Of a stretch of 49,058 nucleotides of DNA, positions 2,383 through 30,153 are shown one piece after another. The DNA is taken from positions 1 through 49,058 of the forward strand of contig JAKOPZ010000079.1 of assembly GCA_029778615.1 (NCBI GenBank), given 5' to 3'. Source of the DNA: Chloroflexota bacterium (GTDB lineage: Bacteria > Chloroflexota > Anaerolineae > UBA4142 > SHND01). The notes under the pieces are model-generated. The model saw only the letters and a program-made list of their open reading frames with translations. It did no database searches and was not told where the DNA came from. The translations under genes were made by a program, and so were the position numbers. Numbering within the stretch: the first letter of the stretch is position 1; every line of letters begins with the position of its first letter.

Positions 2383-3489
2383 ATGTCCGAACCATCCATT
2401 TGGGAACACATGCAGCAACAAGGCGTCACGCGGCGGCAATTTATGCAAATCTGCGGCGTGATGGTGGGTGCAATGGGTTTGCGCGTTGCGCCGCCCGTGC
2501 GCGAAAGCGGCTTGCCCGCGCAAATGGCGCGCGGATACAGTCCCATCGCCACCGTCGCGCACGCGTTGCAAACGAAACCGCGCGTGCCCGTCATCTGGCT
2601 CGAATTTCAAGATTGCGCGGGCTGCTCGGAAGCGTTGACGCGTTCGCACAATCCCTCGCTCATTGACCTCGTGCTGCAATACATTTCGATTGATTATCAC
2701 GAAACGTTGATGGCAGCCGCAGGTTTTCAAGCCGAACAATCGAAACAAGACGCGATGAAAAAATACGCGGGACAGTACGTTCTCGTCGTCGAAGGTTCGA
2801 TTCCGTCCGCGCAAGATGGCGTGTACTGCACCATCGGCGGACGCAGCGCGGTGGATATTTTGAAAGAAGCGGCAGCGGGCGCGGCGGCAATTATTTCGAC
2901 GGGCAACTGCGCGGCGTTCGGCGGCATTCCGAAAGCGAAACCGAATCCGACGGACGCAAAAGGCGTTTGGGAAATCATCACCGATAAACCTGTTGTGAAC
3001 ATTTCGGGTTGTCCCGCGATTCCCGAAGCGACGACGGGAACGATTTTCAATTTCATCGTTTTCGGCGCGCTGCCCGAACTCGATTATTTGAATCGTCCCA
3101 AAACGTTTTACGCACAGACGATTCACGACCGCTGCTTGCGCCGCCCGTTTTACGAAGCGGGAAAATTCGCGGAATCGTTTGACGACGAAGGCGCGCGCAA
3201 AGGATATTGTCTGTACAAACTGGGCTGCAAAGGTCCGACGACATACAACGCGTGTGCGACGATGAAATGGAACAGCGGCTTGTCGTTCCCGATTCAAGCG
3301 GGGCATCCATGTCTCGGCTGCTCGGAACCAAATTTCTGGGACGGCGGCGGATTTTATCAAGGACAATCCGCGCCGCTTGACCGCCCGACCATTCTCGCGG
3401 CGGGCGCGGCGGCAGCGGTTGGCGTCGTCGCGGGCGCGGGGATTGCAATGGCGAATCGCGGACAAAAGAAAGGGACTGCGGGCGAATAG
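2383..3489 (+). CDS. hynS: [NiFe] hydrogenase small subunit, Tat-exported, C-terminally anchored
   Basis: This 368-residue electron-transfer subunit carries three Fe-S clusters. A Tat signal with twin Arg (R17, R18, TRRQF) leads it out of the cytoplasm. Proximal cluster ligands are C78, C81, C176 and C210. Distal ligands are H248, C251, C276 and C282. The medial 3Fe-4S ligands are C291, C310 and C313. A C-terminal hydrophobic helix at about 336-357 anchors it to the membrane. Downstream are a cytochrome b, an HdrD-like protein and the large subunit, the S-isp1-isp2-L order known from Isp-type (HynSL) hydrogenases. The stop codon lies inside the first copy of a 101-bp tandem repeat. Confidence 0.95.
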   Translation: MSEPSIWEHMQQQGVTRRQFMQICGVMVGAMGLRVAPPVRESGLPAQMARGYSPIATVAHALQTKPRVPVIWLEFQDCAGCSEALTRSHNPSLIDLVLQYISIDYHETLMAAAGFQAEQSKQDAMKKYAGQYVLVVEGSIPSAQDGVYCTIGGRSAVDILKEAAAGAAAIISTGNCAAFGGIPKAKPNPTDAKGVWEIITDKPVVNISGCPAIPEATTGTIFNFIVFGALPELDYLNRPKTFYAQTIHDRCLRRPFYEAGKFAESFDDEGARKGYCLYKLGCKGPTTYNACATMKWNSGLSFPIQAGHPCLGCSEPNFWDGGGFYQGQSAPLDRPTILAAGAAAAVGVVAGAGIAMANRGQKKGTAGE

Positions 3490-3877
3490 AATTCGCGGCA
3501 ACGCATGGCAAAACCGACCTTCGTCGGTTCAGTCAACGTAGGTTGACTTGACAATGGGTTGCTGCGGTTTGAACAACGGGCGAATAGAATTCGCAGCAAC
3601 GCATGGCAAATTCGACCTGTGTCGAATTCCAAGTCAACGTAGGTTGACTTGGCAATGGGTTGCTGCGGTTTGAACAACGGGCGAATAGAATTCGCAGCAA
3701 CGCATGGCAAATTCGACCTGTGTCGAATTCCAAGTCAACGTAGGTTGACTTGACAATGGGTTGCTGCGGTTTGAACAACGGGCGAATAGAATTCGCAGCA
3801 ACGCATGGCAAATTCGACCTGTGTCGAATTCCAAGTCAACGTAGGTTGACTTGGCAATGGGTTGCTGCGGTTTGAAC
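3480..3877 (+). repeat. Four tandem ~101-bp repeats with cloverleaf-like potential
   Basis: Units start at 3480, 3578, 3679 and 3780 (lengths 98, 101, 101 and ~98). Each holds GCGAAT-AGA-ATTCGC, a long-range pair GCAGCAAC...GTTGCTGC (unit 1 has a G-T pair here), an inner hairpin, and AGTCAAC-GTAG-GTTGACT. In unit 1 the inner hairpin is AACCGAC/GTCGGTT. In units 2-4 it is ATTCGAC/GTCGAAT, so two pairs changed on both sides. The array fills the gap between hynS and isp1. There are no spacers, so it is not CRISPR. Small reading frames across it are by-products. Confidence 0.9.
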
Positions 3878-9337: not shown

Positions 9338-9679
9338 ATGCATGAACTGGGCGTCGCACAGCAAATGGTGCATCTCGCGCTCGAATACGCAAAAGAAAAC
9401 AACGCGTCGAAAATCACCCAATTTACCATCGAGATGAGTCAAGCGGTGGACGAAAGCGAAGATTCGCTGCGCTTTCATCTCGAAACGCTCGCCCGCGGCA
9501 CGATTGCCGAAGGCGCGCAGTTTGACATTCAACGCGTGCCCGTGCATCTGCATTGTTTGAAATGCGGCAATGAATTTTCGCAAGACTATTTGGGCGAAGC
9601 GTGTCCGAATTGTCACAGCGCGCGCGTCGTCCCTCAAGTGCATGACGAGTTCAAACTAGCCAGTATAGAAATCGAGTGA
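9338..9679 (+). CDS. hypA: Hydrogenase nickel incorporation protein HypA
   Basis: This 113-residue nickel chaperone has the invariant MHE start (H2 is the nickel ligand) and a zinc site formed by two CxxC pairs, CLKC and CPNC, in the C-terminal half. HypA normally acts with the GTPase HypB, but no hypB is found in this window. The start at 9338 has GAGAGG nearby. An 80-base spacer separates it from the protease gene, and its end overlaps the hypF start by four bases. HypA delivers nickel to the large subunit before the protease acts. Confidence 0.93.
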   Translation: MHELGVAQQMVHLALEYAKENNASKITQFTIEMSQAVDESEDSLRFHLETLARGTIAEGAQFDIQRVPVHLHCLKCGNEFSQDYLGEACPNCHSARVVPQVHDEFKLASIEIE

Positions 9680-12174
9680 CGATGCTCCGAACGTTTCATG
9701 TGACCGGCGTCGTGCAAGGCGTCGGCTTTCGCCCATTCGTCTATCAATTGGCGACGCGCGCGGCGCTGCGCGGTTGGGTGATGAATACTTCGGCGGGCGT
9801 GGAGATTCAGGTTCAAGGCGACCTGTCCGCGCTCGAAAATTTCTCGCGTGCGTTGGTCAATGAAAAACCCCCGCTCGCGCGCATTGATTCCCTCTCGTTC
9901 GTTGATTCTCCCACAAACGGTCATTCTCTTTTTGAAAATTTTGAAATCCGCGCGAGTGTCGCGTTCGAAGGCGCATTTCAACCCATCTCGCCCGACATTG
10001 CGATTTGCGCCGATTGTTTGCGCGAATTGTTTGACCCCGCTGACCGCCGCTATCGTTATCCGTTCATCAATTGCACCAACTGCGGACCGCGTTTCACCAT
10101 CATTCAAGATATTCCGTATGACCGTCCGCAAACGACCATGCGCGATTTTGAACTGTGCGACGATTGCGCGCGCGAATATCACGACCCCATGAATCGCCGC
10201 TTTCACGCGCAGCCCGTCGCGTGCGCGAAATGTGGACCGCGTGTGTGGATGGAATATAGTAATCAGTTATCAGTGAGCAGTAATCAGTTATCAGTGAGCA
10301 GTAATCAGTTATCTGTGAACAGTAAGCAGTCTCCAGTCTCCAGTCCCCAATCTCTTCAAGACGACGCGATTTTCGCAACGCAACAACTTTTGGCGCACGG
10401 AAAAATTGTCGCGGTCAAAGGACTAGGCGGCTTTCATCTCGCGTGTGATGCGACGAACGCGGACGCGGTGAACCTTTTGCGCGAACGAAAACGGCGCGTG
10501 GAAAAACCATTCGCGTTGATGCTGCGCGATTTGGAAACAGTTGAACAGCATTGTTTTGTCAATGACGCGGAAGGCGAATTGTTGCAGTCGCGCGAGCGTC
10601 CGATTGTTTTATTGAAACGTCGTCCCGAATCAAATATCGCGCGCGAGGTTGCGCCGAATCAAGATACACTCGGCGTCATGCTGCCGTACACACCGTTACA
10701 TTGTTTGCTGATGGCAGATGGCAGATGGCAGACGGCAGATAGCACATTACGCGACGAGATACGAGATACGAGATGCGAGATGCCAACCGCGCTTGTTCTT
10801 ACGAGTGGAAACTTGAGCGAAGAACCTATCGCGTACACGAATGATGAGGCGCGCGAACGATTGGCAAAGCTCGCCGACGCGTTTTTATTGCACGACCGCG
10901 ACATTCATATTCGCACGGATGATTCGGTTGTGCGCGTGCTTTTCCCCTCTCCTAATAGGAGAGGGGGAGGGGGAGAGGTCTATCCCTTGCGTCGTTCGCG
11001 CGGGTACGCGCCGTTCCCTGTTCACTTGCCGTTCGATGCGCCGCCGATTCTCGCGGTGGGCGGCGAATTGAAAAATACCTTTTGCGTCACACGTGACCGT
11101 TACGCGTTCATGTCGCATCACATCGGCGATTTGGAAAATTACGAAACGCTGCGTTCGTTCGAGCAGGGCATCGCGCATTTTGAGAAATTGTTTCGCATTG
11201 CGCCGCAAGTGATTGCGTACGATTTGCATCCGAATTATTTGGCGACGCGTTATGCGTTGGAACGCGCGGCACGCGAAAACATTCGCGCAATCGGTGTGCA
11301 GCATCATCACGCGCACATCGCCGCGTGCATGGCAGAAAATGGTTTGGACGGAGCGCGCCCCGTCATCGGCGTTGCGTTCGACGGAACGGGGTATGGCGAC
11401 GACGGCGCGATTTGGGGCGGAGAATTTTTGATTGCCGATTATCGCGGCTATAAACGCGCGGCGCATCTCGCGTACGTTCCCTTGCCCGGCGGCGACAAAG
11501 CAACGCGCGAACCGTGGCGCATCGCGTTGGCGTACCTACAACGCGCGGGCGTCGAGTGGGGCGATGACCTTGCCCCCGTGCGCGCGGCGAACGAACACGC
11601 GCGGCGCATTGTGCAGCAGCAAATTGAACGCAACATCAACGCGCCGTTGACATCGAGCATGGGACGTTTGTTTGATGCCGTCGCGTCATTGATTGGAATT
11701 CGGCAAACGGTGAATTACGAAGCGCAGGCGGCGATAGAGTTGGAAGCGCTGGTAGATGACAATGAGAATGGCGCGTATGAGTGGGAGACTGGAGATTGGA
11801 GACTAGAGACTAGAGATTTGAGATTCGAGATTGATAGTTCGTCGTTGATTCGCGCGATTGTGGCGGATGTGCGCGCGGGAGTTTCCAGTTCCATTATCGC
11901 TGCGCGATTTCACAACAGCATCGCATTGATGACGCGAAATGTGTGTCGTGAGTTGCGCGAGGAATTTGGTTTGAACGAAATCGCGTTGAGCGGCGGCGTG
12001 TGGCAAAACATGACGCTGTTGCAAAAAACGCTTTCACTTTTGCGCGACGAAAATTTTATTGTGTATATTCATCGGCTTGTGCCGGCGAATGATGGCGGGA
12101 TTGCATTGGGGCAAGCGATGATTGCAAGTTTTCGTAGTAACGATTTTAATCGTTCCGCCGCCCCGAACGAATGA
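9676..12174 (+). CDS. hypF: Carbamoyltransferase HypF with repeat-encoded insertions
   Basis: HypF makes the thiocarbamate on HypE from carbamoyl phosphate and ATP, the precursor of the cyanide ligands. All domains are present: acylphosphatase (VQGVGFRPF near 14-22), two zinc-finger pairs (CADC, CTNCGPRF, CDDC, CAKCGPR), the YrdC-like domain (KGLGGFHLACDA) and the Kae1-like domain (HHHAHIAAC, FDGTGYGDDG, LSGGVWQN). At 832 residues it is longer than the usual 750-780. The excess is at four places whose DNA matches intergenic repeat families: residues ~195-226, ~346-370, ~423-431 and ~704-717. Each falls at a domain edge or loop. The last residues and the stop are encoded by a fifth element. 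The frame is intact, so the protein is probably functional. Confidence 0.95.
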   Translation: MTMLRTFHVTGVVQGVGFRPFVYQLATRAALRGWVMNTSAGVEIQVQGDLSALENFSRALVNEKPPLARIDSLSFVDSPTNGHSLFENFEIRASVAFEGAFQPISPDIAICADCLRELFDPADRRYRYPFINCTNCGPRFTIIQDIPYDRPQTTMRDFELCDDCAREYHDPMNRRFHAQPVACAKCGPRVWMEYSNQLSVSSNQLSVSSNQLSVNSKQSPVSSPQSLQDDAIFATQQLLAHGKIVAVKGLGGFHLACDATNADAVNLLRERKRRVEKPFALMLRDLETVEQHCFVNDAEGELLQSRERPIVLLKRRPESNIAREVAPNQDTLGVMLPYTPLHCLLMADGRWQTADSTLRDEIRDTRCEMPTALVLTSGNLSEEPIAYTNDEARERLAKLADAFLLHDRDIHIRTDDSVVRVLFPSPNRRGGGGEVYPLRRSRGYAPFPVHLPFDAPPILAVGGELKNTFCVTRDRYAFMSHHIGDLENYETLRSFEQGIAHFEKLFRIAPQVIAYDLHPNYLATRYALERAARENIRAIGVQHHHAHIAACMAENGLDGARPVIGVAFDGTGYGDDGAIWGGEFLIADYRGYKRAAHLAYVPLPGGDKATREPWRIALAYLQRAGVEWGDDLAPVRAANEHARRIVQQQIERNINAPLTSSMGRLFDAVASLIGIRQTVNYEAQAAIELEALVDDNENGAYEWETGDWRLETRDLRFEIDSSSLIRAIVADVRAGVSSSIIAARFHNSIALMTRNVCRELREEFGLNEIALSGGVWQNMTLLQKTLSLLRDENFIVYIHRLVPANDGGIALGQAMIASFRSNDFNRSAAPNE
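10258..10354. repeat. In-frame heptanucleotide array inside hypF (first)
   Basis: Three 21-bp units, each made of three heptamers (AGTAATC, AGTTATC, AGTGAGC), are followed by AGTCTCC-type heptamers. The protein shows the seven-residue repeat NQLSVSS. It lies between the second zinc finger and the YrdC-like domain. Confidence 0.9.
10711..10785. repeat. In-frame heptanucleotide array inside hypF (second)
   Basis: Five ATGGCAG-type heptamers (10711-10745) and four GATACGA-type heptamers (10758-10785) lie between PYTPLHCLL and ALVLTSGN. In HypF relatives these two segments are usually separated by only a few residues. Confidence 0.85.
10944..10966. repeat. Palindromic element inside hypF
   Basis: A perfect 10-bp inverted repeat, CCCCTCTCCT/AGGAGAGGGG, has a 3-nt loop and is followed by a G-rich stretch. 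It is nearly the same as the intergenic hairpin at 7668-7690. It encodes the extra PSPNRRGGGG residues before the LRRSRGYAPFP segment. Confidence 0.85.
11786..11834. repeat. In-frame heptanucleotide array inside hypF (third)
   Basis: Seven consecutive heptamers of the types AGACTGG, AGACTAG and AGATTTG give the odd WETGDWRLETRDLRFEI stretch in the Kae1-like domain. They are the same family as the spacers at 5849, 12493 and 13662. Confidence 0.9.
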
Positions 12175-12187
12175 ATTCGTTACTACG
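12133..12187. repeat. Palindromic element carrying the hypF stop codon
   Basis: CGTAGTAACGA (12133-12143) is inverted exactly at 12177-12187, and inner segments also pair (ATCGTTC with GAACGA, mismatched centre). The hypF stop TGA (12172-12174) is inside it, so the last residues of HypF (about FRSNDFNRSAAPNE) are element-encoded. Confidence 0.8.
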
Positions 12188-12212: not shown

Positions 12213-12509
12213 ATGTGTCTCGGTGTTCCCGGAAAAATTGTCGAGATTCATCAAGCGAACGGTTTAAAAATGGGCAAGGTGGATTTTGGCGGTGTGATGC
12301 GCGAAGCATGTCTCGCGTATGTGCCTGACGCGCAAGTCGGCGATTACACGGTCATTCACGTTGGCTTTGCCATCAGCCGCTTGAGCGAACAAGAAGCGCA
12401 AGCGTCGCTCGAAACGTTGCGCGAGATGGTGAATTTGGAAGAAGAGATTGAACCCGAAAAAATTTTTGGGAAATCTCCGCCGCGTCAGCAAGTGGAGACT
12501 GGAGACTAG
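12213..12509 (+). CDS. hypC: Hydrogenase assembly chaperone HypC
   Basis: This 98-residue chaperone starts with the diagnostic MCLGVPGKI; the Cys at position 2 binds the iron being assembled with its CN and CO ligands. HypC works with HypD and then hands the Fe(CN)2CO unit to the large subunit. AAGGAG at 12199-12204, eight bases before the ATG, is the best ribosome binding site of the locus. The last residues (VETGD) and the stop are encoded by heptanucleotide repeats, so the natural C-terminus was probably altered or extended by a few residues. Confidence 0.95.
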   Translation: MCLGVPGKIVEIHQANGLKMGKVDFGGVMREACLAYVPDAQVGDYTVIHVGFAISRLSEQEAQASLETLREMVNLEEEIEPEKIFGKSPPRQQVETGD

Positions 12510-12563
12510 AGGCTGCGCTTACGATACTCCAGTCTCCAATCTCTAATCTCCAATCTCTAAATC
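12493..12563. repeat. Heptanucleotide repeat spacer with inverted arms (hypC-hypD)
   Basis: TGGAGAC-type heptamers (12493-12513) carry the hypC stop. After a 14-nt core, TCCAATC-type heptamers (12528-12563) run to the hypD start. The arms are complementary, and no ribosome binding site is visible for hypD. Confidence 0.85.
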
Positions 12564-17611: not shown

Positions 17612-19690
17612 ATGCCAAAAATTCTCTGGAACGATTCCGAAGCACAAGGTTTAGACGACCTCGATTTGCTCGTCTATCGCTCGCATTTATTGGGCGCGGA
17701 CCGCGCGGTGTGCAACATTTACGGCGGCAACACGGGGAGCAAAACCATCGAGCAAGATTTTCGCGGCAATCCTGTGCGAACGCTGTGGGTCAAAGGTTCG
17801 GGTTCCGATTTGGCGACGATGCAGCGCAAAGATTTCGCGGGTCTGCGGATGGACGACATCGAGCCGCTGCTCGAACGCGACGCGATGAGCGATCAAGAAA
17901 TGACCGCGTATCTGACGCAGTGCCTCATCGCGCTCAACATGCCGCGTCAATCCATCGAAACACTTTTGCACGGATTCATTCCCGCCGCGCACACTGACCA
18001 CACGCATCCCGACGCGGTGATTTCGCTCGCGTGTTCGCCGAATGGAAAAAATTGGATGCGCGAGATTTACGGCGAACGCGCGGCGTGGGTGGATTACATT
18101 CGTCCGGGATTCACCTTATCGAAACAAATTGGTCTCGCCGTTCGCAACAACCCGCAAATCGAATGTGTGGTGATGGGCAAGCACGGACTCGTCACGTGGG
18201 GCGACGAACCGAAAGCAACCTACGCACACACGATTTCGATTATTCAAGAGGCGGAAGATTTCATTGCAAACCGCGCGAATGGAAAAAAAGTTTTCGGCGC
18301 AATTTCGACATCGCAATTCAACGAAACAGGACGCCGCGAAATTGCCGAAAGCATTATGCCTGTCTTGCGCGGCGCGGCGGGCATTCCGCGTTCCATTTTG
18401 CGTTTCGACGATTCGCCCGATGTTTTGGACTTTGTAAATTCCGAACGCGCGCGCGAGTTCTCACAAATCGGCGCGGCGTGTCCCGACCATCTCGTCCACA
18501 CAAAACGCGTTCCAATGTTTGTCGAATGGGACGCAGATCCCTCGGCTCCGCTCGGGACAAGTCTCCAGTCTCTAGTCTCCAATCTCCGCGAAGAGATGGC
18601 GGGCTATGTTGAAAATTATCGAACGTACTTTGACGCCAACAAAACCGACGGCGACAAAATGTTTCATCCCGCGCCGCGCGTCGTGTTGATTCCGAACGTT
18701 GGGATGATTACGACAGGCAAAGACGCGCAACTCGCGCAAGTGAGTGCGGACTTGTATCATCGTGCAATCAATGTGATGGGCGGCTCGAACGTGTTGGATG
18801 AATTCAATTCGTTGAGCGCGGCGGAATCGTATGCAATCGAGTACTGGCCCCTCGAACTGTACAAATTGTCGCAGCGTCCGCCTGACCGCGAACTCACGGG
18901 ACGCGTTGCCTTCATCACGGGCGCGGCGTCGGGCATCGGACGCGCAACCGCGTATCGCCTCGCGCAAGAAGGCGCGCATGTTGTGGTTGCCGATTTGAAT
19001 CTCGAAGGCGCGCAAAATGTCGCGGCGGACATTACGAAACGTTTTGGTTTCAAACGCGGACTCGCCGTCCAGTGCAACGTCACCGACGAAGAACAAGTGG
19101 CGAACGCATTCCGCGAAACCGCGCGCGCGTATGGCGGCGTGGATATTGTGGTGAACAACGCGGGGCTTGCGTCGTCGTTTTCTGTGACGGAAACGACGCT
19201 CGCGGAATGGAACAAATTGTTTGATGTGTTGGCGAAAGGATATTTTCTCGTCGCGCGCGAAGCGTTCAAAATTTTTCAACAGCAGCAATTGGGCGGCAGT
19301 GTGATTTTTGTTGCGAGTAAAAATGGTTTGATTGCGAGCAAAAACGCGAGCGCGTACAACGCGGCAAAGGCGGCAGAAATTCATCTGGCGCGTTCGCTCG
19401 CGGAAGAAGGCGGCGCGATGGGCGTGCGCGTCAACGTGGTGAATCCCGACGCGGTGCTGCAAGGTTCGAGCATTTGGGATGCGGGTTGGCGCGAGGCGCG
19501 CGCAAAAGGGATGGGCATTGCGCCCGACCAACTCGAAGAAGCGTATCGCCAACGCACGACGTTAAAAGTGAATGTGTATCCCGAAGACATTGCCGAAGCG
19601 ATTTTATTTTTCGCGTCGGAACGTTCGAACAAAACAACGGGTGGAATTTTGAATGTGGATGGTGGGCTTGTCGCGGCGTACGTACGCTGA
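17612..19690 (+). CDS. rhaEW: Bifunctional rhamnulose-1-phosphate aldolase / lactaldehyde dehydrogenase
   Basis: This 692-residue fusion cleaves L-rhamnulose-1-phosphate to DHAP and L-lactaldehyde (class II aldolase, about 1-410) and oxidises the lactaldehyde with an SDR domain (about 430-692). The aldolase has the metal-binding HTDHTHPD at about 127-134. The SDR has GAASGIG at about 436-442 and catalytic Y582 and K586. A short odd stretch, SLQSLVSNL, near residue 320 is encoded by heptamers at 18561-18588, inserted in frame at a helix boundary. The reading frame is complete, so activity is expected. Confidence 0.93.
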   Translation: MPKILWNDSEAQGLDDLDLLVYRSHLLGADRAVCNIYGGNTGSKTIEQDFRGNPVRTLWVKGSGSDLATMQRKDFAGLRMDDIEPLLERDAMSDQEMTAYLTQCLIALNMPRQSIETLLHGFIPAAHTDHTHPDAVISLACSPNGKNWMREIYGERAAWVDYIRPGFTLSKQIGLAVRNNPQIECVVMGKHGLVTWGDEPKATYAHTISIIQEAEDFIANRANGKKVFGAISTSQFNETGRREIAESIMPVLRGAAGIPRSILRFDDSPDVLDFVNSERAREFSQIGAACPDHLVHTKRVPMFVEWDADPSAPLGTSLQSLVSNLREEMAGYVENYRTYFDANKTDGDKMFHPAPRVVLIPNVGMITTGKDAQLAQVSADLYHRAINVMGGSNVLDEFNSLSAAESYAIEYWPLELYKLSQRPPDRELTGRVAFITGAASGIGRATAYRLAQEGAHVVVADLNLEGAQNVAADITKRFGFKRGLAVQCNVTDEEQVANAFRETARAYGGVDIVVNNAGLASSFSVTETTLAEWNKLFDVLAKGYFLVAREAFKIFQQQQLGGSVIFVASKNGLIASKNASAYNAAKAAEIHLARSLAEEGGAMGVRVNVVNPDAVLQGSSIWDAGWREARAKGMGIAPDQLEEAYRQRTTLKVNVYPEDIAEAILFFASERSNKTTGGILNVDGGLVAAYVR
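18561..18588. repeat. In-frame heptanucleotide array inside rhaEW
   Basis: Four heptamers (GTCTCCA, GTCTCTA and close variants) code for part of SLQSLVSNL. The same heptamers form the spacer at 5852-5872. Confidence 0.85.
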
Positions 19691-19696
19691 GACCAA

Positions 19697-19877
19697 GTTA
19701 AAAGTTAAAAGTTAAAAGCTGATGTTACGCATGTCATTTCGAACCCCTCAATCCTTCGGGGTAAACTCTGTGAGAAATCTCGGTTTTCCACTGAGATTTC
19801 TCGCAAGAACGGCTCGAAATGACAGCTACTGCGTAAGGTGAGTTAAAAGCTAAAAGCGCAAAGGTAAAAGGGAAAAA
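19697..19877. repeat. GTTAAAA heptamer array interrupted by a palindromic element
   Basis: Three GTTAAAA heptamers (19697-19717) and a second run (GTTAAAA, GCTAAAA and variants, 19842-19876) flank the palindromic element at 19732-19824. Both flanks contain GTTAAAAGCT in the same orientation, as if one array had been split by an insertion. The right arm ends one base before the rhaM ATG. Confidence 0.8.
19732..19824. mobile_element. MITE-like palindromic element, copy 1
   Basis: The terminal inverted repeats are TGTCATTTCGA (19732-19742) and TCGAAATGACA (19814-19824). An inner pair GAGAAATCTC (19772-19781) / GAGATTTCTC (19793-19802) forms a second stem. It shares both motifs with the element at 45695-45768. 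There is no coding capacity. Confidence 0.75.
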
Positions 19878-22991: not shown

Positions 22992-24080
22992 ATGCCTGAA
23001 TACAACAGTCCGCTCGCCGAAATGGCGGCGACAACTCCCACACAGTATTGGAACGATTCCTGCTCGGTGCAGGAGCTGCAATACGCGATGGCGCGCGGCG
23101 CCATCGGCGCGACGAGCAATCCGGTCATCGTGCTCAACGTGTTGAAAAAAGAAATGGCAATGTGGGACGCGCGCATTCATGAAATCATTGCCGAGAATCC
23201 CACCGCGACCGACGCGCAAGTGAGCTGGCAGGTGTACCAAGAAATTGCCGTGAACGGCGCGCAACAACTCTTGCCCGTGTTTGAACGCGAGCATCGCAAA
23301 TTCGGTCGGCTCTCGATTCAGACCGACCCGCGCCTCTATCGCGACCGCGACGCGATTTTGGAACAAGCAGAAAAATTTTCCGCGCTCGCGCCAAACATGC
23401 AAGTCAAAATTCCTGCAACGCGCGCGGGCATCGGCATGATTGAAGAAGCGACGTATCGCGGCGTGAACTTGAACGTGACCGTGAGTTTCACCGTGCCGCA
23501 GACGCTCGCCGCCGCAGAGGCAATCGAACGCGGTTTGCAGCGCCGCGAACGCGAGGGCAAGGATGTGAACACCATGTCGCCGGTGGTCACGATGATGGTC
23601 GGACGCAATGACGATTGGATGAAAGTGGTCGTCAAGCGCGATGAAATCGAAATCAATCCCGACTATCTCGAATGGTGCGGCGTCGCGTGTTTCAAAAAAG
23701 CATATGGCATTTATCAAACGCGCGGCTATCGCGCGCGCTTGCTTTCGGCGGCGTACCGCAATTTTTATCACTGGACGGAATTTGTCGGCGGCGAAGTGAC
23801 GCTGACGATTCCGTGGGAATGGCAAGTGAAATACAACGAGTCCGACGTCAAGCCCACTGTGCGCATGCAAGAACCCGTGAACGAAGAAATTCTCGAAACG
23901 CTTTATACGCGCATTCCCGATTTTCGCCGCGCGTACGATGAGGATGGAATGACGGTGGACGAATTTGACACGTTCGGCGCGACGGTGCGTACGCTGCGTT
24001 CGTTCATCGAAGGGTATTACAACTTTGTCGCGCTGATTCGCGATTTTATGCTGCCGAACCCGGACGTGAAATCAAAATAG
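22992..24080 (+). CDS. Transaldolase-family protein in the inositol operon
   Basis: This 362-residue protein carries the transaldolase fold with the Schiff-base lysine K139 in MQVKIPAT and the GATSNPVIV segment near 39-47. It is longer than fructose-6-phosphate aldolases (about 220) and near classical transaldolases. ATG 22992 has TGAGGA at 22981-22986. It stands first after the LacI gene and before iolD, where inositol operons usually carry iolC/iolJ/iolA. It could process a keto-deoxy sugar product of IolB, or a pentose-phosphate intermediate. The substrate cannot be read from the sequence. Confidence 0.85.
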   Translation: MPEYNSPLAEMAATTPTQYWNDSCSVQELQYAMARGAIGATSNPVIVLNVLKKEMAMWDARIHEIIAENPTATDAQVSWQVYQEIAVNGAQQLLPVFEREHRKFGRLSIQTDPRLYRDRDAILEQAEKFSALAPNMQVKIPATRAGIGMIEEATYRGVNLNVTVSFTVPQTLAAAEAIERGLQRREREGKDVNTMSPVVTMMVGRNDDWMKVVVKRDEIEINPDYLEWCGVACFKKAYGIYQTRGYRARLLSAAYRNFYHWTEFVGGEVTLTIPWEWQVKYNESDVKPTVRMQEPVNEEILETLYTRIPDFRRAYDEDGMTVDEFDTFGATVRTLRSFIEGYYNFVALIRDFMLPNPDVKSK

Positions 24081-24091
24081 GAAATCCGCAC

Positions 24092-25957
24092 ATGCAACAC
24101 ACCATTCGCCTCACGATGGCGCAAGCCATCCTGCGCTTTCTCAAAAACCAATACACCGAACGCGACGGCGTCGAACAAAAATTTTTCGGCGGCATCTGGG
24201 GCATTTTCGGTCACGGCAACATCGCGGGCATCGGCGAAGCGCTCCAAGAGAATCCCGATTTTCGTTATTACCTCGTTCACAACGAACAGAACGCGGTGCA
24301 TGTCGCCGCCGCGTACGCGAAAATGTCCAATCGGCTGCGCGCGTTTGTTTGCACCAGTTCCATCGGTCCCGGCGCGACGAATATGCTTACCGGCGCGGCA
24401 GCGGCGACGATAAACCATTTGCCCGTACTGCTTTTGCCCGGCGATATTTTTGCGCGGCGAAATGTTGCGCCCGTTTTACAACAATTGGAATCGCCGCTGT
24501 CCCAAGATATTTCGGTCAACGATTGTTTCAAGCCCGTATCGCGATATTGGGACCGCATCAATCGCGCCGACCAAATCATTACCGCGCTGCCCGAAGCGAT
24601 GCGCGTGTTGACTTCGCCCGCCGATACGGGCGCGGTCACGCTCGCGCTGCCGCAGGACGCGCAAACGGAAGCGTATGACTATCCCGCCGCGTTGTTTGAA
24701 AAACGCGTGTGGCACATTCCGCGCGCGCGTCCTGACGCGGCGGCCTTGCAGCGCGCGGCGGAATGGATTCGCGCGAGCCGCGCGCCGCTCCTCGTCGCGG
24801 GCGGCGGCGTGAAATACAGCGACGCGACGGACGTACTCAAAACATTCGTCGAACGCACAGGCATTCCCGTCGGCGAAACGCACGCGGGCAAAGGCGCGCT
24901 CGCGTACAATCATCCGTTATCGCTCGGCGCCATCGGCGTGACGGGAACGCGCGCGGCGAATCTCATGGCGCGCGAAGCGGACTTGGTCATCGGCATCGGC
25001 ACGCGCTATTCCGATTTCACCACCGCGTCCAAAACCGCGTTTCAAAATCCCGCTGTGAAATTTATCAACATCAATGTCGCGGAATTCGACGCGTACAAAC
25101 ATTCCGCGCTCGCGCTCGTCGGCGATGCGCGCGAGACGTTGGAAGAATTGGGACTGGAGATTGGAGACTGGAAAACGGATGCGGAATATCGCGCGCGCGC
25201 GGAGCAATTGAACAAGGAATGGGATGCCGAAGTGAGTCGGCTTTATGGCATCGAACACGGTCCGCCGATTTCGCAAGGCGAAGTGATTGGCGCGATTAAT
25301 TCCGTCGCGGGCGAACGCGATGTGGTGCTCAACGCGGCGGGGAGCGCGCCCGGCGATTTGCACAAACTCTATCGCAGCCGCGACCCGCGCAGCTATCACA
25401 TGGAGTACGGTTATTCGACGATGGGTTATGAAATTCCCGGCGGCATGGGCACCAAGCTGGCAGACCCCACGCGCGAAGTGTTTGTGATTGTGGGCGACGG
25501 CTCGTACTTGATGATGCCGCAAGAAATTGTGACCGCCGTGCGCGAGGGTATCAAACTCAATATCATCATCATTAACAATCACGGCTTTCAAAGCATCGGC
25601 GGTTTGTCGCAGAGCATCGGCGGCGATGGTTTTGGCACGCATTACAGATATCGCGATGAAACGACGGGACAGCTTTCGGGCGAACTCTTGCCGCTTGATT
25701 TTGCCGCGAATGCGCGTTCGCTCGGCGCGCACGTGATTGAAGCAAAAGATTTGCCGTCGCTTCAAGCCGCGTTGGAAGAATCCAAACGCGCGACCAAGAC
25801 CACCGTCGTCGTCGTCGAGACCGACCGCGAAGAACGCGTGCCGGGGTACGAATCGTGGTGGGATGTGCCGCTCGCGCAAGTGGCAGAAATTAAAGCGGTG
25901 CAGGACGCCGCGCGCGAATATCAAGAAGCGAAACAAAAAGAAAAATATTTCTTATGA
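24092..25957 (+). CDS. iolD: 3D-trihydroxycyclohexane-1,2-dione hydrolase (IolD)
   Basis: This thiamine-diphosphate enzyme opens the inositol ring (cleavage of 3D-(3,5/4)-trihydroxycyclohexane-1,2-dione). The 621-residue sequence has the typical IolD start ([27 protein letters not shown]), the catalytic Glu region [17 protein letters not shown] and the ThDP/Mg motif starting [12 protein letters not shown] near residue 467 and ending NNHGFQ. A short EIGDWKTD stretch is encoded by in-frame heptamers at 25151-25171. The stop overlaps the next start (ATGA). Confidence 0.94.
25151..25171. repeat. In-frame heptanucleotide copies inside iolD
   Basis: Three heptamers, GGACTGG, AGATTGG and AGACTGG, match the hypF array at 11786-11834. 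They encode GLEIGDW between two conserved parts of IolD. Confidence 0.75.
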
Positions 25958-26850
25958 TTCAAATCGCAAATGCGCCGTGTTCGTGGGGCGTGATTGAAAA
26001 TATCGAGGGCGAGCGCATTACATACAAACAGGTGCTCGACGAAATGCACGCGACGGGTTACGTCGGCACCGAGCTCGGCGATTGGGGTTTCATGCCAACG
26101 GACCCCGCGCCGCTGCGCGCGGAATTGGACGCGCACAATTTGAAACTGCTCGGCTCGTGGGTGAATGTGTATTTGCATGACGCAGCGCGTCATGACGAGA
26201 GCATCGCCGATTGTGTCCGCACCGCGAAATTGCTGGCAGCGGTCGGCGGCGAAAACGCGTTCGTCATTTTGGGCAACGACCCGTACATGGACCCCATGCG
26301 TACAAAATACGCGGGACGCATTACGCCCGCGCAAGGCATGAACGACGCGCAGTGGGAAATTTTTGCAAATGGCGCCGAGCGCGTGGCGCGAGCCGTGCGA
26401 GATGAAACGGGACTGCGAACGATTTTTCATCATCACGTCGGCACATGGGTTGAAACGCCGCAAGAAACCGCGCGTCTTTTAGAAATGACCGACCCGAAAT
26501 TACTGGGACTCGTTTTCGATACGGGGCATTGGACGTTCGGCGGCGGCGACGCGGTGGAGGGATTGAAAAAACACGCCGACCGCATTTGGCATGTGCATTT
26601 CAAAGATTGCAGTCAACGCGTCGCGCAACAATCGCGCGCGGAAGGGTGGGATGGTCCAACCTCGCTCGGACACGGCATCTTTTCCGAACTCGGCAAAGGC
26701 GATGTGGATTTTCCCGCCGTGTTGAAACAGCTCGCCGCGATGGGTTATGCTGATTGGATTGTGGTGGAGCAAGATGTTTTGCCGGGCATGGGCACGCCGC
26801 GCGCGAGCGCGCAACGCAACCGCGATTATCTCAAGAGGATTGGTGTATGA
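25954..26850 (+). CDS. iolE: Inosose dehydratase-like TIM-barrel protein (IolE)
   Basis: This 298-residue member of the xylose-isomerase-like TIM-barrel superfamily is best read as IolE, which dehydrates 2-keto-myo-inositol. [10 protein letters not shown] opens the protein, and [36 protein letters not shown] and VVEQDV carry the expected metal-binding acidic and His residues. It overlaps iolD by four bases and iolB by four bases. IolH or a related epimerase is the alternative, but its place between iolD and iolB favours IolE. Confidence 0.82.
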
Positions 26851-27683
26851 ATCATCATCTCAAATCCGATTTCCATGCGCGTGTTCAACTGGAGGTAACG
26901 CCGGAGCGTGCGGGTTGGCGCTACTTGCGTTTTCAAATCCTCGCGCTCGACGCGGGGCAAGCGCTCACGCACGAAACGCGCGACAACGAAGTGGCATTGA
27001 CCGTGCTTGCGGGCAGGGCAAACGTGCGCGTCGCGGACGAATCCTTTGCTGTTTCACGCAAGGGGATTTTTCAAGAACTCGCATCCGTGTTGTATGTGCC
27101 GCCGCATCGAACAATCACCATCACGGCGACGACGCGTTTTGAATGCGCCATCGGCGGCGCGCCCGCGCAAGGCAAATATCCCGCGCGCCTTTTTGGTTCG
27201 GACGAAATGAAACAAGAACTGCGCGGCGGCGGCGCGGCACAGCGGCAGGTGAATCATTTGCTGGCGTATCCGCTGCCCGCCGAACGTTTGATTTTGTACG
27301 ACGCCTATTTGCCCGGCGGCATGTGGGGCGGCATTCCGCCGCATTGTCACGACGGGTACATGGACTCGCCGTATCTGGAAGAAACGTACTATTATCGCAT
27401 TACGCCAAATGACGGTTTTGCCTTTCATCGCAACTATCGCTGTGACACTGATTTCGACGAAGTGTTCACCGTGCGCGATGGCGACCTCGTTCTCGTGACG
27501 CAGGGTTTTCATCCCGTTGCCGCTGCGCCGGGCTCGAACGTTTATTTCTTGAATTATCTCGCGGGCGATTTGGTGGACGATGCGCGCAAGACGCCGCCGT
27601 ACGACGACCCCGCGTATGCGTGGCTAAAACAAAATTGGGGCGGCAACGCGTTCGCGCTGCCCATGTTTGAGAATGGCGAATGA
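26847..27683 (+). CDS. iolB: 5-deoxy-glucuronate isomerase (IolB)
   Basis: This 278-residue bicupin protein isomerises 5-deoxy-D-glucuronate to 5-dehydro-2-deoxy-D-gluconate. [21 protein letters not shown] is the characteristic metal-binding stretch, and [19 protein letters not shown] closes the second cupin. ATG 26847 overlaps the iolE stop (ATGA). The following iolG starts inside its last codons. The product would need the kinase IolC, which is not encoded here. Confidence 0.93.
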
Positions 27684-28705
27684 ATGCGCGATTGCAAATT
27701 GGCTTGATTGGCGCGGGACGCATCGGCAAAATTCACGCGGAAAATGTTGCCACGCGCGTGCGCGGCGCGCAGCTCGCGGCGATTGCGGATGTAAATCGCG
27801 CGGCGGCGGAAGAGGTTGCGAATGAATGGAACATTCCGAATGTGACGGATGACGCGCGCGCATTGCTCGATGACAAAACGATTGATGCAGTCGTCATCGC
27901 CTCGGCAACGGACACGCACGTGCCGTTGATTGAACAAGCCGCGGCGGCGGGCAAACACATTTTTTGCGAAAAACCGATTTCGAATGAGCTGGCGAAAATT
28001 GACCGCGCGTTGGATGCGGTAAAACGCGCGGGCGTGAAATTGCAAATCGGCTTTAATCGGCGTTTTGACCCGAATTTTTTAAAAGCGCAGAAACTCGTCG
28101 CGGAAGGACGCATCGGCACGCCGCATCTCTTGCACATTATCAGCCGCGACCCGTCGCCGCCGCCGCTCGAATATATTCGCGTGTCGGGCGGAATTTTTCT
28201 TGACATGACGATTCACGATTTCGACATGGCGCGTTATCTCATCGGCGAAGTGAGCGAAGTGTACGCGACGGGCGATGTGCGGATTGACCCCGCAATCGGA
28301 ACGGCGGGCGATATTGATTTGGCGGTGACGGTGCTGCGTTTTGAGAACGGTGTGATTGGGACGATTGATAACAGTCGCGGCACGAGCTATGGCTATGACC
28401 AACGCATCGAAGTATTTGGCTCGCACGGCGCGCTGACCATTTCCAACGAAGCGCCGGACGCGGCGGTGATTAGCGACACGAATGGCATCCACGCGTCGCT
28501 GCCGTATTACTTTTTTCTGGAACGGTACACGGCCGCGTATCTGGAAGAAATGCGCGCGTTTGTCGAAGCGGTGCGCCAAGACCGTCCGTCGCCGGTGACG
28601 GGACGCGATGGACGAGTTCCGGTGGTCATTGCGCTCGCCGCGAAAAAATCGCTTGACGAACATCGCCCCGTGCGCTTGTCGGAAATCGAAATGCAAAACG
28701 CGTGA
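27680..28705 (+). CDS. iolG: Inositol 2-dehydrogenase (IolG, Gfo/Idh/MocA family)
   Basis: This 341-residue NAD-dependent enzyme oxidises myo-inositol to 2-keto-myo-inositol. The Rossmann motif GLIGAGRIGKIHAEN is at 8-22, and the catalytic EKPIS lysine is at about K98. GGIFLDMTIHDFDMARYL carries the D..H pair of the family. Coupled by overlap to iolB and to the next gene. A second, more distant family member lies downstream at 30150. Confidence 0.92.
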   Translation: MNARLQIGLIGAGRIGKIHAENVATRVRGAQLAAIADVNRAAAEEVANEWNIPNVTDDARALLDDKTIDAVVIASATDTHVPLIEQAAAAGKHIFCEKPISNELAKIDRALDAVKRAGVKLQIGFNRRFDPNFLKAQKLVAEGRIGTPHLLHIISRDPSPPPLEYIRVSGGIFLDMTIHDFDMARYLIGEVSEVYATGDVRIDPAIGTAGDIDLAVTVLRFENGVIGTIDNSRGTSYGYDQRIEVFGSHGALTISNEAPDAAVISDTNGIHASLPYYFFLERYTAAYLEEMRAFVEAVRQDRPSPVTGRDGRVPVVIALAAKKSLDEHRPVRLSEIEMQNA

Positions 28706-30153
28706 TGCTGAAAAACGAAATTGTTTTCAAAGGCGAATTTGTTCCCGCACAAGAAAAAAGTTACGTGCATTTGCCGTTCGACGTTCCACCGCACACAACG
28801 CGCATCGAGGTCGAATACAGTTACAGTCAGCAAATTGATTCCGACCCTTTGCTGCGCGGCGGCAATACGATTGATTTGGGACTTTTCGACGAACGCGGGA
28901 TTGATTTTTTGAACGCAGGATTTCGCGGGTGGAGCGGCAGCGAACGATTGAACATTTTCATCGGCGAGACAGAAGCGACGCCCGGATATTTGGCGGGGGC
29001 GATTCACGCGGGACAGTGGCACGTGCTGCTGGGTCTTTACAAAATTGCGCGAGAGGGCTGCACATATCGCGTCACCGTTACGCTGACGACGCAAAACGAA
29101 AACGCCGCACGCACACATGACGCGATTCGCAAAAACGATTTGCCGTCGTCGCCCATTGCACAGCGTCACGGCAAATGGCTGCGCGGCGAAATGCACTGTC
29201 ACACGCTTCACAGCGACGGCGACAGTACGGTAGAAAATCTGGTGAACATGGCGCGCGCACGCGGACTCGATTTCTTGGCAATCACCGACCACAATTCCGT
29301 CAGCCATCAATGCGTGTTGGAAACGCTTTCCGACCCCGGACTGATTCTGATTCGCGGCGTCGAAGTCACGACGTTCAAGGGACATTGGAACGCGTGGGGC
29401 ATTCCGGATTGGATTGATTTTCGCGCGACGCGTCCCGAACAGATGCGCGCGGCGATTCAATTTGCCAATGCGCGCGGCGCGCTGACATCGTGCAATCACC
29501 CGAAACCGTTCGGACCGATGTGGGAGTACGCGGAGGTTGAGGACTATCACTGCATCGAAGTCTGGAACGGTCCTTGGCAGGCGCGGAATGAGGACTCGCT
29601 CGCGTTTTGGACAGAACGCCTCGCGCAGGGCAAACGCTTCGTCGCCGTCGGCGGGAGCGATTGGCATCATTTCCAAGAATTGGACGCGGCTCCGCCGCGC
29701 GCGCCCGGTACGCCCACGATGTGGGTTTACGTTGACGAAACGCCGAGCGCGGACACGATTTTGGATGCGATTCGTCGCGGACACGTTGCGCTTGCGGATG
29801 AACCGAACGGCGCGTTGTTGGAGCTGGCAGTTTGTCCGCTGATTCAAGAAACGGACGGCGCGCTGTATGATCTGTGCGTCGAACCGGAGCGGGCGGCGCG
29901 CGGCGGTGATGCTCTCGAACGCGCGCCCGAATCGCTCGTCCAAGTCCGCTGCCGGCGCGGCGCAGGCAACATCTTGCAAGTTTTCGACGACGCGCGCGAG
30001 TGGCTGCGGCAGGAAATTTCTCAAGACGACCAAACCATTACGTTCGCGGTACAAACCGCGCACAGCCTGTACTTGCGCGCGGAATTGCGCGATGGGCAAG
30101 GGGAAATGCAAGCGCTCACCAATCCAATTTATTTTTACGAGGCAGTTTCATGA
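28705..30153 (+). CDS. PHP-domain metallohydrolase (CehA/McbA type)
   Basis: This 482-residue protein has a beta-sandwich-like N-terminal part (about 1-150) and a PHP phosphoesterase domain. Metal-binding motifs are MHCHTLHSDG, TDHNSVS, the Glu in GVEVTTF, the His of CNHPKP and GGSDWHH. PHP enzymes hydrolyse phosphomonoesters or cyclic phosphodiesters. It sits between inositol genes and overlaps both neighbours, so its substrate is probably an inositol-derived phosphate. ATG 28705 uses the TGATG overlap. A related protein is encoded at 38095. Confidence 0.88.
   Translation: MLKNEIVFKGEFVPAQEKSYVHLPFDVPPHTTRIEVEYSYSQQIDSDPLLRGGNTIDLGLFDERGIDFLNAGFRGWSGSERLNIFIGETEATPGYLAGAIHAGQWHVLLGLYKIAREGCTYRVTVTLTTQNENAARTHDAIRKNDLPSSPIAQRHGKWLRGEMHCHTLHSDGDSTVENLVNMARARGLDFLAITDHNSVSHQCVLETLSDPGLILIRGVEVTTFKGHWNAWGIPDWIDFRATRPEQMRAAIQFANARGALTSCNHPKPFGPMWEYAEVEDYHCIEVWNGPWQARNEDSLAFWTERLAQGKRFVAVGGSDWHHFQELDAAPPRAPGTPTMWVYVDETPSADTILDAIRRGHVALADEPNGALLELAVCPLIQETDGALYDLCVEPERAARGGDALERAPESLVQVRCRRGAGNILQVFDDAREWLRQEISQDDQTITFAVQTAHSLYLRAELRDGQGEMQALTNPIYFYEAVS

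Follow-up and report, generated by a model that had tools for sequence, protein, structure and literature searches.

In-frame heptamer arrays and hairpins in the loops of the carbamoyltransferase HypF of a Chloroflexota bacterium

Introduction

The window analysed here, the whole 49,058-nucleotide stretch on contig C176 of the draft genome G000 (6.0 Mb, 372 contigs) from an uncultured Anaerolineae bacterium, encodes a carbamoyltransferase HypF whose gene holds five repeat features. A preliminary description, made from the letters of the DNA, regarded them as insertions kept in frame and the gene as a hotspot, which raises the question of how repeat DNA comes to lie inside a conserved enzyme. 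The five features are real, and all of them fall within one open frame. DNA-level repeats have probably entered or grown in hypF and stayed where length matters little, namely in four loops and at the C-terminus.

Results

The hypF gene and its repeat features

The gene lies among hyp neighbours, and its product matches PDB entry 3vth (E 5e-211); alignment with the solved HypF structures 3vth and 4g9i runs over two stretches that together span nearly its full length. The acylphosphatase, zinc-finger, YrdC-like and Kae1-like regions are all present with their invariant residues kept, and the nearest relatives in named records are mostly from Anaerolineae or other Chloroflexota. Comparison of G000 with the congeners G001 and G004 gives a dN/dS of 0.17–0.22, from which hypF is concluded to be under purifying selection, while the dS of 0.8–0.9 indicates that synonymous sites are fairly diverged. 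The gene, its repeats and a repeat in its neighbourhood are as follows.

9676–12174, plus strand: hypF, 832 aa, carbamoyltransferase HypF, intact frame
10258–10355, plus strand: site 1, array of 14 in-register heptamers (98 nt), family B running into family A
10710–10785, plus strand: site 2, double array of GATGGCA (10710–10744), then (C)GAGATA (about 10752–10785)
10944–10966, no strand: site 3, hairpin CCCCTCTCC-TAATA-GGAGAGGGG with a G-rich tail to about 10977
11784–11833, plus strand: site 4, family A array (GGAGACT/GGAGATT/AGAGACT) in a loop of the Kae1-like domain, encoding WETGDWRLETRDLRFEID
12133–12187, no strand: C-terminal hairpin, GTAG-tagged, CGTAGTAACGATTTTAATCGTTC...GAACGAATGAATTCGTTACTACG, encoding the HypF C-terminus RSNDFNRSAAPNE and the TGA stop
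12494–12558, no strand: convergent family A hairpin between hypC and hypD; the TAG inside it is the hypC stop (after ...QQVETGD)

Tandem Repeats Finder and the open reading frame bear out the five features that had been described in hypF, with corrections to three of them. The site 1 array, located between the second zinc finger and the YrdC-like domain and encoding SNQLSVSSNQLSVSSNQLSVNSKQSPVSSPQSL, had been given as nine heptamers of exactly 63 nt. These 63 nt are its first part, consisting of three triplets of the family B units AGTAATC/AGTTATC/AGTGAGC, the third degenerate, and they are followed without a break by AGTAAGC and the family-A-like AGTCTCC, AGTCTCC, AGTCCCC and AATCTCT (family A units at this site, AGTCTCC/AATCTCT). 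The array at site 2, in a YrdC-domain loop flanked by MLPYTPLH and LVLTSGN, is present as described but consists of two adjacent families rather than one. The 3' palindrome is likewise present, and the TGA stop of HypF itself lies inside it.

Sites 1, 2 and 4 are direct heptamer arrays, with Tandem Repeats Finder scores of 125 (10258–10330, period 21), 56 and 49 (10710–10744 and 10754–10781), and 64 (11785–11830, period 21), respectively; at all three, in both G000 and G001, lag-7 matching within the loop exceeds that of all 2000 shuffles. The two remaining features are hairpins of 23 nt (site 3, in the loop ahead of LRRSRGYAP, encoding FPSPNRRGGGGE) and 55 nt (C-terminal). The latter is a GTAG-tagged palindrome which is multi-copy and mostly intergenic in the sample of its own genome, where 8 of the 9 occurrences of its arm GTAGTAACGA lie outside coding sequences (CDS). 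The insert peptides of HypF include NQLSVSS, ADGRWQTADSTLR, RGGGGEVYPLR and LETRDLR. Elsewhere in the window, a 101-bp unit stands in four tandem copies at 3479–3877 (96% match), the series starting at the 3' end of the hydrogenase small-subunit-like gene.

Comparison with congeners

The comparison set comprises five congeners, all compared genomes being drafts that are probably metagenome-assembled, and loop lengths were counted between fixed anchors. At sites 1 to 4 the loops measure 50, 31, 15 and 35 aa in G000 and 52, 106, 26 and 50 aa in G001, as against 27, 13, 6 and 30 aa in G004; the corresponding values are 23, 18, 6 and 29 aa in G002 and 24, 11, 9 and 29 aa in G005. Relative to G004, whose HypF is 74.4% identical to that of G000, the G000 protein is longer by 23, 18, 9 and 5 aa at the four sites (55 aa in total) and that of G001 by 158 aa, 93 of them at site 2. 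Insertion events are read from the comparison of genomes, and at site 4 the difference is just 5 aa.

G001, at 80.8% identity over common columns, carries repeats at the same four loops. Its site 1 is family B followed by family A, in register, its site 2 is GATGGCA followed by a (C)GCGATA-type array, these being related families in the same order as in G000, and its site 3 consists of CCCTCTCC hairpins in a version longer than that of G000; site 4 contains TTGGAAG/AAAATTC heptamers in place of family A. The two proteins differ in loop length by 2, 75, 11 and 15 aa at sites 1 to 4. Because the order of families matches at sites 1 to 3, shared ancestry with later divergence in length is indicated, and as four of the five additions sit where G001 has inserts too, these four probably date from a common ancestor. 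The hypF genes of G001 and G004 lack the C-terminal hairpin.

The hypF gene of G004 is without inserts, clear-cut at sites 2 and 3, where G002 and G005 have short loops as well. Its site 2 already reads GATGGCGGATG, a seed of 1.5 units. At site 1 a weak lag-7 signal is found in the normal-length loop of G004 and likewise of G005; G004 was therefore dropped as a perfect empty site for site 1, where an old array may have been replaced in the course of time. The inserted residues thus come from in-frame translation of repeat DNA and are located at loops or domain borders, as had been proposed, and the relatives lack them or differ; alignment with close relatives revealed no case of the same residues encoded by non-repetitive codons.

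The same loops in 85 HypF proteins

A set of 85 HypFs was assembled from 80 HypFs of named genomes and the five of the G000 and congener set, with a consensus of 762 columns. The four loops cover a minor share of this consensus and hold 32 of the 40 insertions of at least 8 aa, and most HypFs have no such inserts. Lag-7 periodicity occurs in 13 of 339 loop segments, whereas among control windows cut from these genes it is seen in 3 of 1349 (Fisher p 2e-7). Related HypFs enter this comparison separately, and p values, here and below, are optimistic, since heptamers belonging to the same array are not independent observations. The remaining lags between 4 and 13 add up to four loop segments.

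The heptamers differ from lineage to lineage. L151, from the uncultured Chloroflexi CFX4, contains GGTAATC/GGACTTC and CACTGCT heptamers at sites 1 and 3, while site 1 carries ACGAAWG in G005 and GAAAGAA in L140, site 2 a mixed 7/8 unit in L142, site 3 GGGAAGT in L141 and site 4 AATATCC in L158. GGTAATC has 428 dispersed matches in the CFX4 genome and ACGAAWG has 54 in G005. For GGGAAGT and AATATCC no further exact pattern match was found in the respective genomes, and local slippage alone may account for some arrays; dispersal and local slippage both seem to feed HypF loops. In the CFX4 genome (G405), GGTAATC also occurs at several loci as plus-then-minus pairs with 35-nt spacing, which suggests a defined hairpin element. 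The HypF of another Anaerolineae genome (L179) contains several CCCTCTCC-type hairpins in site 4 (about 3370–3684), and this loop measures 105 aa between anchors vs a median of 32.

Repeat families through the genomes and in other proteins

Family A (consensus GGAGAYT) has about 610 pattern matches in G000 vs 7 for the reversed control, and 401 in G003, 124 in G001, 31 in G005, 6 in G002 and 1 in G004. Its distribution in the phylum is patchy, with any match in 26 of 400 genomes. Family B has 925 matches in G001 and 10 in G000. Array statistics were taken from 1.07 Mb with home-made gene calls, comprising 652 kb of G000, mostly in contig order, with the window itself included and C340 added after an earlier match, together with pieces of G003 (231 kb) and G001 (191 kb), some of them from contigs in which arrays were already known, which biases the densities of these two genomes. 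In the 652 kb sample 18 of 40 family arrays are CDS-interior, and per kb the arrays are enriched outside CDS. Family A arrays in the sample are often convergent inverted pairs (11 plus-minus, 1 minus-plus).

In-frame arrays were also found in AroA, a dimethylglycine-dehydrogenase-like (DMGDH-like) protein and others, in the GDWRLE or LQSPVS reading, as well as in MutL of G003 and a copper ATPase of G001. Stop-capable AGAGAYT heptamers make up 9 of 64 in CDS arrays vs 46 of 117 outside (p 3.6e-4, three genomes, 1.07 Mb). Arrays of GGAGAYT, GGCAGAT and CGAGATA contain no stop in any of the six frames, which would explain how these families persist inside genes. The expectation that copy number changes in multiples of 21 bp holds for site 1, where a 21-nt period is dominant in both G000 and G001; beyond these site 1 arrays, CDS arrays showed no period-21 excess over intergenic ones.

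Further occurrences were observed in the window and nearby data. An aldolase/short-chain-dehydrogenase fusion (17612–19690) contains a second in-frame family A array at 18560–18587 (SLQSLVSNLR), and G001 (C36) has an array at the same place; an intergenic dispersed element at 19725–19848 has many matches in G001, G002, G003 and G005. On contig C3 of G000 (L079), two adjacent dimethylglycine-dehydrogenase-like genes (23313–26000, minus strand, and 27077–29674, plus strand) each contain an inverted family A pair at an apparently corresponding position (RLETRDS..LQSPVS).

Comparison with known repeat systems

Rickettsia palindromic elements (Ogata et al. 2000) are dispersed and occur in frame in many unrelated functional proteins (PMC10969869), as do the repeats described here (HypF, AroA, MutL, copper ATPase and DMGDH-like protein). 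They are, however, palindromes of about 100–150 bp with a conserved peptide, whereas the present repeats are 7-nt direct arrays and hairpins of 23 and 55 nt. Intragenic GTAG/CGTC REPs are small palindromes in conserved genes that in some cases, as in recB, recur at nearly the same position across species (PMC3733652), and the C-terminal element of hypF is likewise a GTAG-tagged, multi-copy, mostly intergenic palindrome. REPs measure 20–40 bp, and the GTAG ones are linked to RAYT genes (PMC3733652), whereas the heptamer arrays are not palindromic.

Among heptamer repeats, TAACTGA of Beggiatoaceae and cyanobacteria is mostly intergenic and in ORFs lies mainly near ends or in hypothetical proteins (PMC4679880). 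Family B is similar to it, both being genome-dispersed tandem 7-nt units, and the reverse orientation of TAACTGA encodes LSVISYQ where NQLSVSS is encoded here, but the hypF arrays lie inside a conserved enzyme. The GGGGA(C/T)T heptamers of Nostoc are one base apart from family A (GGAGAYT); of the Nostoc repeats 68% lie between genes and about a third within them, and heptamer families are known in Xanthomonas as well (PMC4692102); no analysis of loops or orthologues was seen in that paper, whereas the present repeats are placed in the loops of known enzymes. Geobacter metallireducens contains dispersed elements of four heptamers, some within genes, which are interpreted as regulatory (PMC2700814), while the hypF arrays are read as protein. 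In-ORF tandem repeats of Borgs create new low-complexity or disordered regions with the frame unbroken (PMC9879509), similar to the hypF arrays. All the Borg units are divisible by three, whereas the hypF unit is 7 and only site 1 has a dominant 21-nt higher-order unit; since 7 is coprime to 3, the frame of hypF is kept only by the insert as a whole. Among the papers searched, none on heptamers in Anaerolineae proteins was found. What is new here is the presence of 7-nt arrays inside conserved enzyme domains, with different repeat families converging on the same loops.

Discussion

Probable tolerance rather than targeting

The view of hypF as a hotspot, in the sense of insertion targeting, fares poorly. 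Under the sampled rate, the probability that a single 2.5 kb gene collects three clustered array events is about 3.5e-5, and about 0.065 genes with three such events are expected genome-wide at a uniform rate, which is only modestly unlikely; as the gene was picked as extreme and rates differ among genes, a rate-based hotspot is suggestive only, and by rate it was set aside as marginal. The evidence favours explaining the clustering by a tolerance of HypF loops for insertions, seen in many bacteria, over targeting.

Origin of the arrays

If each array had arisen in situ by slippage from a chance seed in hypF, dispersed copies would not be involved. The L141 and L158 arrays, found nowhere else in their genomes by exact pattern, and the 1.5-unit seed of G004 are consistent with this; since families A, B, GGTAATC and ACGAAWG occur throughout their genomes, and since in G000 as well as G001 two dispersed families meet in register at site 1, slippage as the sole source is unlikely.

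It is quite unlikely that the repeats are non-autonomous mobile hairpins moved by a Y1/HUH (RAYT-type) transposase, although the C-terminal element is a palindrome with a GTAG tag, arrays of family A often form convergent inverted pairs, CFX4 has its GGTAATC pairs 35 nt apart, and Y1_Tnp matches number four per array-rich genome vs 1–2 in array-poor ones (n = 6 genomes). The hypF heptamer arrays are direct repeats, and the four Y1_Tnp loci inspected, with flanks of at most about 1.5 kb, contain no family A or B arrays, no GTAG element and no GTAGTAACG. No RAYT link was found from the counts in six genomes and these four loci, and RAYT-driven spread was set aside as improbable.

Repeated use of the same loops and a kept frame might also be expected of functional linkers or binding regions under protein-level selection. 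This is improbable, as the peptide is wholly different between genera and tracks the DNA repeat instead of a protein motif, most HypFs do without inserts, and peptides like GDWRLE, LQSPVS and QLSVSS occur in unrelated enzymes. A pseudogene or an assembly artefact is scarcely credible: the draft has 372 contigs and repeats are error-prone in assembly, but the dN/dS is about 0.2, the conserved residues and the frame are intact, and a second genome has inserts at the same sites.

Proposed course of events

The preferred reading, that repeat DNA entered or grew in hypF and was retained where length matters little, would proceed as follows. This Anaerolineae lineage contains families of tandem 7-nt arrays, together with small hairpins, scattered over the genome, as the counts demonstrate. 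Judging from their sharing, arrays would have entered or expanded in hypF before the split of G000 and G001, and the C-terminal hairpin later. Selection would then have kept only frame-preserving, stop-avoiding insertions in permissive loops, a filter indicated by the dN/dS, the clustering in loops across bacteria and the fewer stop-capable heptamers in CDS arrays. Copy number may afterwards have shifted by frame-preserving steps. For the spread itself, template-switch or strand-slippage copying during replication or repair from microhomology seeds, such as the one at site 2 of G004, is the preferred guess, a dedicated transposase being disfavoured. The peptides encoded by the inserts most likely serve as neutral linkers on the protein surface.

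Significance

HypF provides a testable case of a conserved enzyme extended by repeat DNA, in which sites can be compared within one genus and convergent repeats are found in other genera. With a unit of 7, which is coprime to 3, the reading frame filters both array length and stop content, so that selection can be measured by comparing coding with non-coding copies. Unusual low-complexity segments of Chloroflexota proteins, such as GDWRLE, LQSPVS, QLSVSS and PSPxRRG, may be DNA repeats and not domains, a point that bears on annotation and structure prediction. Repeat DNA would thus recurrently lengthen a working HypF where little harm is done. More tentatively, and with some doubt, many Anaerolineae might share a process that spreads arrays of fixed 7-nt period and free sequence and remodels the loops of conserved enzymes, in which case the HypF loops would be its record across genera.
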